A DNA stretch of 41,229 nt from a virus. Position numbers and translations under genes: made by a program. Numbering within the stretch: position 1 is the stretch's first letter; each line of letters starts with the position of its first letter. Where the stretch lies: the IMG/VR virus record IMGVR_UViG_3300006076_000009, positions 1-41,229 of that record, one strand, 5' to 3'. The notes beneath the pieces were generated by a model, which had not been told where the DNA came from, made no database searches, and was given only the letters and a program-made list of their open reading frames with translations. Of this stretch, positions 5,173-10,864 are shown in pieces.

Positions 5173-5460
5173 TTAAAAGTCATAACTTTGATATTCCTCA
5201 CATTCGCAACAATCTGCTCTTAGCTTACAATATTCACATATAGCTATCTCTACGCATTGCCCGTCAACGTTATTCTCGTAATCCTCCAACTGCTCACTAT
5301 TTATAAACCCCATCTTCTTAGCTTCCCAATCCTTAGCCCTTTTAAGCCTTTCCGGATTAGTCGTATTATGATAGTGGTCTTTGTGTTTTGAGTCTAAAAA
5401 CTTTGCATTTACATGTTTATGTTCTATTGATTGACCGCAACCACATTTACAATATCTCAT
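5173..5460 (-). CDS. Small two-cluster zinc-finger protein
   Basis: A 95-aa protein. The N-terminus (CKCGCGQSIE, then His/Asp residues about 25-32) resembles the treble-clef finger seen in many small phage proteins. A second cluster near the C-terminus (CEYCKLRADCCEC) may bind another zinc. It overlaps the upstream gene by 4 nt. Its role is unknown; DNA or RNA binding is plausible. Confidence 0.65.
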   Translation of the reverse strand: MRYCKCGCGQSIEHKHVNAKFLDSKHKDHYHNTTNPERLKRAKDWEAKKMGFINSEQLEDYENNVDGQCVEIAICEYCKLRADCCECEEYQSYDF

Positions 5461-9423: not shown

Positions 9424-10047
9424 TTACTTTCCTTTCATTTCAATCAACTTTAACGCTTCTAATCTTCTTGTAACCGCAGGGTCTGGATATAATTCACTAG
9501 GCTTTAAATTGCTCGTAACAATAACAAATTGATTGTTATCATAAGCCTGCCAAATAAAACTATTAATTATATCTGCATCCCAGTCTGTCTCCCTCTCTCT
9601 ACCTAAATCATCTAAAACTAAAATCTTTCTATTGTTGTTAGATTGCTTTAAAATCTCATAAGGCGTCTGTCTCGATGCTGGAAGTATTGCACTTTTAACC
9701 ATTTGAACCAAACTTAATATCGGATGCCATATCACCCCACTATATTTTTTGTTTTTAATTAGGTCGATTACAACCGCTCCAGCGAACGATGATTTCCTTG
9801 ACCCTGTCTTACCATACAAATACAATCCAAGTCCCTCACAATCGATTTCTACCCCATAGGTTTCGATGCTATACATTCGGTATCGATGAGGTATTGCCTT
9901 AATTTTCTCATTTAACTCATTTTCCTGCTCTATTTTCCTAAATTCATCAATTTCCGCATCCGAGTAGTCGCTCCTTTCTGCTTTTTCCTTGAATTGCTGT
10001 GCTAGCCTCTTCCCCATTTGCTCTAAACTTTCCACTTTTATCTCCAT
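9424..10047 (-). CDS. DnaC-like helicase loader (AAA+ ATPase)
   Basis: A 207-aa ATPase. Walker A GKTGSRKS at 79-86, Walker B ILVLDDLG at 142-149, sensor-1-like VIVTSN at 175-180 and an arginine pair at 194-195. In the usual GxxGxGKT the residue before Lys is Gly; here it is Arg84. Members load the replicative helicase DnaB at the origin. The gene overlaps the upstream initiator gene by about 100 nt in another frame. ATG 10047 has no clear ribosome binding site, whereas GTG at 10035 has GGAG upstream and is an alternative start. Confidence 0.85.
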   Translation of the reverse strand: MEIKVESLEQMGKRLAQQFKEKAERSDYSDAEIDEFRKIEQENELNEKIKAIPHRYRMYSIETYGVEIDCEGLGLYLYGKTGSRKSSFAGAVVIDLIKNKKYSGVIWHPILSLVQMVKSAILPASRQTPYEILKQSNNNRKILVLDDLGRERETDWDADIINSFIWQAYDNNQFVIVTSNLKPSELYPDPAVTRRLEALKLIEMKGK

Positions 10048-10621
10048 TCAATTTAAATATTCCCTGCCAACCATTAGCAATAGAGTTTTCTAGAATTTCA
10101 ATTTTATCTTTATCATTATCCGCTAATCTATTTAGCTTCTTGAGAAAGGTTTCAATTTCCAGTTCTGTTGTTATTGGTTTTTTCTTCGATTTCCTATAAT
10201 CTAAAAATTTAATGAGTTCTATATTTAACTTTTCAGAATAATCAAACTTTAAAATAATACCCCTTAGTTTATTAAATGTTTTATTATATGTTTTATTATC
10301 TTTAGACTCTCCACTTTTTATGGATACCTGTCCATCTTTTATGGATACCCCTCCATTTTTTATGGATAGTATTCTTTTATGATTTCTATCAGATATTTTA
10401 CTTATAATTAACCCTTTTCTAACAAGAGAATTAATTGTATTAGATACACTTTTTTTAGTTATGCCAAATGAAACTTCAAAGTGGCTATTGCTCGCAAAAC
10501 ATCCTTTTTCTGTGCTTGATAAGTTTAATATTTCCATATATATTATTTTTTCTTGCATAGTCATTAATTTGTTTCTTATAAGACTATGAGATAACACAAT
10601 AAATTTATCGTTGTTTTCCAT
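9947..10621 (-). CDS. Replication initiator with winged-helix N-terminus
   Basis: A 224-aa protein. The N-terminal 80 residues form a winged-helix DNA-binding domain (FGITKKSVSNTINSLVRKGLI). A repeat-encoded linker of SIKxGxx heptads follows (about 83-103), then a helical C-terminal domain with ENSIANGWQGIF (181-192), a signature of phage replisome organisers of the DnaD/O class. As in lambda O, the DNA encoding the linker looks like the origin itself. Start ATG 10621 has AGAGGA upstream, just after a terminator, so expression is probably attenuated. Confidence 0.85.
   Translation of the reverse strand: MENNDKFIVLSHSLIRNKLMTMQEKIIYMEILNLSSTEKGCFASNSHFEVSFGITKKSVSNTINSLVRKGLIISKISDRNHKRILSIKNGGVSIKDGQVSIKSGESKDNKTYNKTFNKLRGIILKFDYSEKLNIELIKFLDYRKSKKKPITTELEIETFLKKLNRLADNDKDKIEILENSIANGWQGIFKLNGDKSGKFRANGEEASTAIQGKSRKERLLGCGN
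10276..10373. repeat. Putative replication origin: three 21-bp iterons beside AT-rich 12-mers
   Basis: Inside the initiator gene, 10311-10331, 10332-10352 and 10353-10373 are three tandem 21-bp units (core CCA, then TTTTATGGATA). Next to them, 10276-10287 and 10288-10299 are two exact copies of ATGTTTTATTAT in very AT-rich DNA. Iterons plus an adjacent AT-rich direct repeat is the layout of initiator-bound origins with an unwinding element. Confidence 0.75.
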
Positions 10622-10638
10622 ATTAATCCTCTGTAAAT

Positions 10639-10750
10639 AAAAAAATCGATGACATTCTGAAAGAGACCAAGCTTGAGATTGGAAAGGCAGAACGCCACCG
10701 ATTTAAATTTTTTAATTAAGATTAAGTTCTCAAGCAAAATCTCTTAATCT
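10639..10750 (-). ncRNA. Structured leader / small RNA with predicted loop-loop interaction and terminator
   Basis: On the - strand, a 5' hairpin (10743-10750 with 10719-10726, 8 bp) has a loop containing GCUUGAGA (10735-10728). A 3' hairpin follows: 10704-10688 with 10659-10643, 17 pairs including 3 G-U. It is capped by a 4-bp helix (CCAA/UUGG) whose whole 8-nt loop is UCUCAAGC (10678-10671), the exact complement of the first loop. The 3' hairpin ends in seven U (10645-10639), making an intrinsic terminator 18 nt before the initiator start codon. The three G-U pairs would be A-C mismatches in + strand RNA, which fixes the strand. Confidence 0.7.
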
Positions 10751-10752
10751 CA

Positions 10753-10781
10753 AATATACTACAATACTAATCCTTTGTCAA
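10753..10781 (-). promoter_or_regulatory. Sigma70-type promoter for the structured RNA
   Basis: TTGACA (10781-10776), 17-nt spacer, TATATT (10758-10753). The predicted start is near 10746, which would trim part of the 5' stem; transcripts from upstream would carry all of it. The -35 box overlaps the stop codon of the 28-aa peptide gene. Confidence 0.75.
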
Positions 10782-10864
10782 ACACTTTTCCTAATAAACT
10801 TACAATAAAACAAAATAAACGGTATCAATATAATCAACAAAATCAATACAGCTAAATCTTTCAT
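10778..10864 (-). CDS. 28-residue membrane peptide
   Basis: ATG 10864 overlaps the stop of the upstream 42-aa gene (ATGA). The peptide is one hydrophobic helix (LAVLILLIILIPFILFY, 4-20) with a basic end (KFIRK). Its stop lies in the -35 box of the next promoter. Short, but the coupling (GAGGTAATAGA before ATG) supports translation. Confidence 0.5.
   Translation of the reverse strand: MKDLAVLILLIILIPFILFYCKFIRKSV

Follow-up and report, generated by a model that had tools for sequence, protein, structure and literature searches.

Plasmids are the classic case of replication initiators controlled by RNA; for lytic-type phages such control has, to our knowledge, hardly been described. In ColE1, RNA I and RNA II interact through kissing loops of about 7 nt, paired over their full length. 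The element described here lies ahead of the replication initiator gene of a virus contig of 41,229 bases (35% G+C), referred to as a whole as the window. It resembles ColE1 in the size and full-length pairing of its loops; however, the ColE1 loops are sense and antisense parts of two RNAs, whereas both loops of the window element lie in one RNA.

Another likeness is found in the repZ leader pseudoknot of IncIalpha/IncB plasmids (ColIb-P9), where loop contact is described as turning on translation (PMC8383071, citing Asano and Mizobuchi 1998). In both systems the leader of an initiator mRNA contains consecutive hairpins with loops complementary to one another (PMC8383071). As far as the repZ mechanism is outlined in that source, however, an antisense RNA from the opposite strand blocks the contact, and the repZ loop does not sit on a terminator hairpin; in the window no antisense gene is evident, and loop y is carried by the terminator-like hairpin. 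Rep attenuation of the pT181/pIP501 type also uses a terminator directly before the initiator gene that is set by RNA pairing (PMC8383071), but it is driven by a counter-transcribed RNA, whereas the partners in the window are encoded on one strand and in one transcript.

Among phage RNAs, P4 CI, P1/P7 c4 and Gifsy-1 IsrK are similarly short and leader-derived, with complementary segments within the transcript, and P4 CI RNA stops transcription ahead of replication genes (PMC4825925, PMC12197685). They differ in having no sequence or Rfam match to the window element, whose own action in trans is only putative; in addition, c4 and IsrK act on antirepressor operons. The putRNA of HK022 is likewise a pair of neighbouring hairpins that follows an early phage promoter, but as far as its description in PMC9378689 extends, it suppresses termination and no loop-loop kiss is mentioned, whereas hairpin 2 of the window is terminator-like.

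The element in the window

The portal and capsid of the window are epsilon15/BPP-1-like. The early genes, on the - strand, are ordered as RecT-like annealing protein, exonuclease, DUF669, small ORFs, the element, O-like initiator and DnaC-like loader (Table 1). The element fills the intergenic stretch between a 28-aa ORF, which ends in the promoter, and the initiator ATG. This ORF is hydrophobic and has a Shine-Dalgarno-like site, with its stop codon inside the TTGACA box. DNA similarity to named phages was not found for 9.4-11.3 kb; the search for relatives via the helicase loader and exonuclease gave nothing useful, and that via the portal gave a single one, at 39%. A Bacteroidota-type promoter (TTTG-N20-TATATTTG) is present at the element but was rejected, with 3 matches in the window overall versus 1.9 expected; because these matches are near expectation and most genes of the window carry Shine-Dalgarno sites, no host is assigned.

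Table 1. Positions of the window element, its neighbouring genes and the Family A double hairpins
Feature	Position	Strand	Remark
28-aa ORF MKDLAVLILLIILIPFILFYCKFIRKSV	10778..10864	-	ends at promoter
-35 box TTGACA	10776..10781	-	overlaps stop codon of the upstream 28-aa ORF
-10 box TATATT	10753..10758	-	inside TAGTATATTTG, a stretch identical in the freshwater family
Hairpin 1	10720..10749	-	core stem GATTAAG/CTTAATC, 16-nt loop
Hairpin 1 core arms	GATTAAG 10749-10743, CTTAATC 10726-10720	-	
Loop segment x, GCTTGAGA (also GCUUGAGA)	10728..10735	-	in hairpin 1 loop, complementary to y
Hairpin 2, terminator-like	10643..10704	-	17 bp, 3 G-U pairs, large loop
Hairpin 2 arms	10704-10688 and 10659-10643	-	
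Inner 4-bp stem CCAA/UUGG of hairpin 2	10667..10682	-	closes exactly the 8-nt loop y
Loop segment y, TCTCAAGC (also UCUCAAGC)	10671..10678	-	complementary to x
U7 run of terminator	10639..10645	-	first three U paired in stem
Shine-Dalgarno-like AGAGGA of initiator	10627..10632	-	
O-like replication initiator, 224 aa	9947..10621	-	HTH_36; PHROG 678
DnaC-like helicase loader	9424..10047	-	next gene of initiator operon
Family A, L083	300-440		
Family A, L084	105-232		
Family A, L087	8933-9066		
Family A, L088	7050-7180		
Family A, L086	~958 of reverse complement	-	

A reading made earlier from the sequence alone had described a TTGACA-17-TATATT promoter and, behind it, a pair of hairpins whose 8-nt loop segments complement each other exactly; the second hairpin was given 17 pairs, three of them G-U and broken in + strand RNA, with a U run before the initiator. 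All of this is present on the - strand; the promoter, with its spacer of 17 nt, matches the consensus at 11/12 positions, and 17 nt separate the U7 run from the initiator ATG at 10621. The three G-U pairs become A-C on the + strand, and together with the U run they fit an RNA from the - strand only. A promoter-like site that might serve a counter-transcribed antisense RNA is found on the + strand at 10516-10544 (10/12), but such sites are at chance level (4 versus 6.7 expected). With 17 bp and U7, hairpin 2 has the stable hairpin and following U run by which intrinsic terminators or attenuators are recognised in sequence; a simple terminator scanner missed it because it allowed loops of 3-8 nt only.

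The - strand fold has an energy of -34.3 kcal/mol (z -3.0), equalled by none of 200 shuffles, and the + strand folds more poorly (-24.9 kcal/mol, z -2.0). The two-hairpin score of 77 was not reached in 300 dinucleotide shuffles of the whole window on both strands (best 73), and a loop match of 8 nt or longer, both loops given, has a p of about 0.003. A stricter kissing-plus-terminator descriptor, written post hoc once the window and locus L090 had been seen, scores the window at 81 versus three weaker matches in 200 whole-window shuffles (best 61), and it picked exactly the window and L090 among the loci gathered by then. The suspicion that the promoter's own start may trim the 5' stem is borne out, since for transcripts starting at least 5 nt past the -10 box hairpin 1 drops from -8.5 to about -3.6 kcal/mol.

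No known class had been recognised for this RNA, and none emerges from the Rfam 15 covariance models, which the window does not match at gathering score; below it, only HIV_GSL3 and psRNA6 appear, at chance level and far under the cut-off. The elements of L090, L207, L129, L112, L172 and the freshwater loci described below also lack an Rfam match, and a description of the element was not found in the literature searched.

Comparable layouts and the freshwater-phage family

Homologs of the initiator were drawn from viral and bacterial genome collections, with 74 dereplicated initiator starts. Among these homologs the window layout is not unique, as it occurs also at L090, L207 and L129. L090 carries a TTGACA-17-TATATT promoter, a 15-bp hairpin 1 with loop ACUCUCCCC and a terminator hairpin with loop GGGGAGAA (7-nt kiss), followed by a U run, a Shine-Dalgarno site, a small ORF and the initiator; a second initiator copy was not found in genomes of the L090 group. 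In L207, the loop is exactly AAACGAAG against CUUCGUUU in the terminator loop (8-nt kiss, 27 nt before the ATG), and in L129, before an initiator in a Clostridia genome, GAUUUAGCCA faces UGGCUAAAUC in the terminator loop (10-nt kiss). Other loci show parts of the design: L172 has an 11-nt kiss directly ahead of the Shine-Dalgarno site and is without a terminator, and at L200 (3350-3500) the initiator follows a terminator hairpin whose loop could pair for about 18 nt with sequence further upstream, in place of a short loop-loop kiss.

L090 corresponds to CP070724.1, labelled as a Thermoplasmatales archaeon MAG. Its replication region looks like that of a bacterial prophage, with a sigma-70-type promoter and an intrinsic terminator, and the archaeal label is probably a binning error.

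Terminator-like hairpins lie within 75 nt of the initiator ATG at 25 of the 74 dereplicated loci, versus 2.1 expected, many of the 25 being members of the one freshwater family. Outside this family, 5/56 initiator upstream regions reach p<=0.01, versus 0.56 expected. The kissing design is absent from most homologous initiators in the set, and a convincing kissing element was not found in named phages with related initiators from Lactobacillus (c5), Staphylococcus, Lactococcus, Erysipelothrix, Butyrivibrio, Flavonifractor and Lysinibacillus, nor in Riemerella CRP5. At L113 (2920-2995), a terminator loop (TTTAGTTAG) is complementary to the stretch just ahead of the initiator ATG (CTAACTAAG).

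The freshwater-phage family comprises about 110 locus copies, some of them one contig counted twice, which reduce to 42 distinct sequences with one shared element. Its parts are ordered as TAGTATATTTG, GAGU-loop-ACUC, AGAACUUAUU, GCCC-inner hairpin-GGGC, U run and ATG. The 42 distinct sequences were selected on their stem and position, with loop complementarity playing no part, and in every one of them the second loop exactly complements the 7 nt of the first. The loop pairs number three (GTCGGAT, ATTGCAG, GTTGCAG) and the distinct cores six; across these cores the loop-loop cells are 100% paired when the kiss is counted as a pseudoknot. Compensating changes in stems and loops, named beforehand as a test of the fold, were thus found in related phages: both sides change in 4/7 loop-loop pairs and 5/6 inner-stem pairs, counts that belong to the freshwater family, the window RNA being without a close sequence relative. 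None of 500 shuffles gave as good a covariation score, a result that the relatedness of the sequences makes optimistic, and every slid version fails; the loop pairs are only three. Still, without selection on the fold, four doubly changed loop pairs together with an exchanged inner stem would not easily arise.

In most cases the freshwater element stands directly before the ATG of an HTH_36 initiator. The gene behind it varies, however, between about six initiator types (among them PHROG initiator, DnaD-like, replisome-organiser and primosomal) and one methylase. It is of DUF1376/primosomal type in L282, of replisome-organiser type in L337, and of DnaD-like or initiator types in L284, L251 and L249; in L147 and L201 it is a DNA methylase, with the initiator further on in its operon. 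In pairwise comparison, the next-gene products of L282 and L337 showed no similarity and that of L284 only weak C-terminal similarity. Conversely, initiators that are 74% identical have different loop pairs. Since the next gene changes and these close initiators differ in their loops, the loops are not simply DNA sites of the initiator, and so the RNA would appear to travel as a control module of replication initiation.

The window shows the same order of promoter, hairpin 1, terminator hairpin, full loop-loop complement and initiator ATG. The freshwater covariance model matches the window element weakly, in the right place and on the right strand, at 13.8 bits (E 3.3 over 85 kb, or 0.016 with the search limited to 401 bases), a match driven by UAGUAUAUUUG and AGAACUUA, which are common to both at matching places. 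By layout, the window RNA is of the same kind as the freshwater family; sequence homology between the two is suggestive only, and common descent putative.

Probable leader attenuation and alternative readings

The element rather probably works as an attenuating leader RNA that limits how much replication initiator is made, with a loop-loop kiss in its fold. Transcripts starting at the promoter, or arriving from upstream genes, would form hairpin 1 and then the terminator hairpin, whose loop would pair with that of hairpin 1. The majority would end at the U run as a compact RNA of about 105-115 nt, which could double as a small RNA, and a minority would continue into the genes for the initiator and the helicase loader. 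During transcription x appears first, then y and only afterwards the closing arm, so that the kiss can form co-transcriptionally and affect closure. The contact probably belongs to the selected fold and sets how well the terminator closes; x-y pairing leaves the terminator stem intact, so there is no obvious on/off switch.

The earlier proposal, of a structured RNA with loop-loop contact and a terminator ahead of the initiator that serves as attenuating leader, copy-number control or small RNA, holds in part. Its structure is well supported by the sequence comparisons, as is its position ahead of differing initiators; what we infer is the function, namely that the RNA is produced and terminated, that the loops do kiss and thereby alter read-through, and that some trigger acts on it. 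That the RNA keeps its place before differing initiator genes favours leader control of initiator synthesis. Counting against it are the unusual terminator loop of 26-28 nt, the trimming of hairpin 1 for starts from its own promoter, the weak freshwater-model match and the lack of the kissing design at most homologous initiators in the set. A covarying kissing RNA between promoter and initiator start, kept through initiator exchange, suggests a general, portable control of phage replication, and the element resembles an RNA switch, so far unrecognised, that would govern the start of phage DNA replication. It is missing from Rfam and could be used to uncover hidden replication modules of metagenomic phages.

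Possibly, though this is not the reading we prefer, the terminated RNA is itself the main product: a free-standing small RNA acting in trans on its own nascent leader, the read-through mRNA or a host target, its place before the initiator supplying dosage-coupled expression. L112/L196 is consistent with this: in a non-coding region that is not next to the initiator, its promoter (TTGATA-17-TATAAT) is followed by a hairpin and by a terminator hairpin, the two having complementary loops of 8 nt; L112 (1-620) is a long non-coding region with a free-standing promoter, the two complementary-loop hairpins, a terminator and further repeats. The paired loop changes among close relatives, those with 74%-identical initiators, resemble specificity groups, and Gifsy-1 IsrK and P4 CI RNA offer precedents (PMC4825925). 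However, the terminator adjoins the initiator ATG in most cases, pairing of the loops in cis should outcompete pairing in trans, and L112 is one case that may be unrelated. A more tentative extension is that the terminated leader, containing both kissing halves, is a self-addressed signal that would target, in trans, those nascent leaders that share its loop type, so that an increase in genome copies would shut down (or release) initiator synthesis. If so, groups of incompatibility or of superinfection immunity would be set by the loop pairs, and the module would operate ahead of any initiator gene.

It is unlikely that the two hairpins form a put-like antitermination or pausing element, binding RNA polymerase so that later terminators are ignored. 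A two-hairpin RNA right after an early promoter does recall HK022 putRNA as described in PMC9378689, and the Family A hairpins (L083, L084, L086-L088; see below), which have no obvious terminator, would fit better; but the second hairpin itself precedes a U run in the window, L090, L207, L129 and the freshwater family. Slightly harder still to sustain is the view that the inverted complementary segments act at the DNA level, as sites used for instance by the initiator at an origin, with an incidental RNA fold. The segments adjoin the initiator and complementary loops are also DNA inverted repeats, yet the pair GTCGGAT precedes several unrelated initiators, 74%-identical initiators differ in loop pairs, covariation is seen in the stems, there are G-U pairs, and the fold leads into a U run. 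Least probable is an ordinary intergenic terminator beside an unrelated hairpin, the window loop match being chance or an independent accident: the p of about 0.003 for the loop match alone, the absence of a close relative among those found and the weak model match leave some room for it, but several independent lineages have this design in the same position, and it covaries in the freshwater family.

Other double hairpins

Family A is a separate conserved double hairpin in five digester phages (Table 1), with a covarying kiss of 7-10 nt (GCGTCCAAAC, GTGTCCAAGC, GCCGTCCAA and others) and no Rfam match. It precedes the initiator or another early gene, and the first genes of the early operon differ. 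In L083, a second kissing pair at 550-622 (UUGACGGACUC/GAGUCCGUCAA, 11 nt, 13-15-bp hairpin) lies upstream of a small ORF before the initiator; its order, weak hairpin then terminator, suits the opposite strand better.

L268 was high-scoring, yet it was set aside because of its location near a TROVE/Ro60 gene and YrlA RNA. This phage contig (- strand, about 2820-2950 and 5188-5295) has, besides the TROVE/Ro60 protein gene, a YrlA-like RNA beside tRNA genes and a further double hairpin with complementary 8-nt loops and a 16-bp terminator downstream. This double hairpin may be a second Ro partner RNA.
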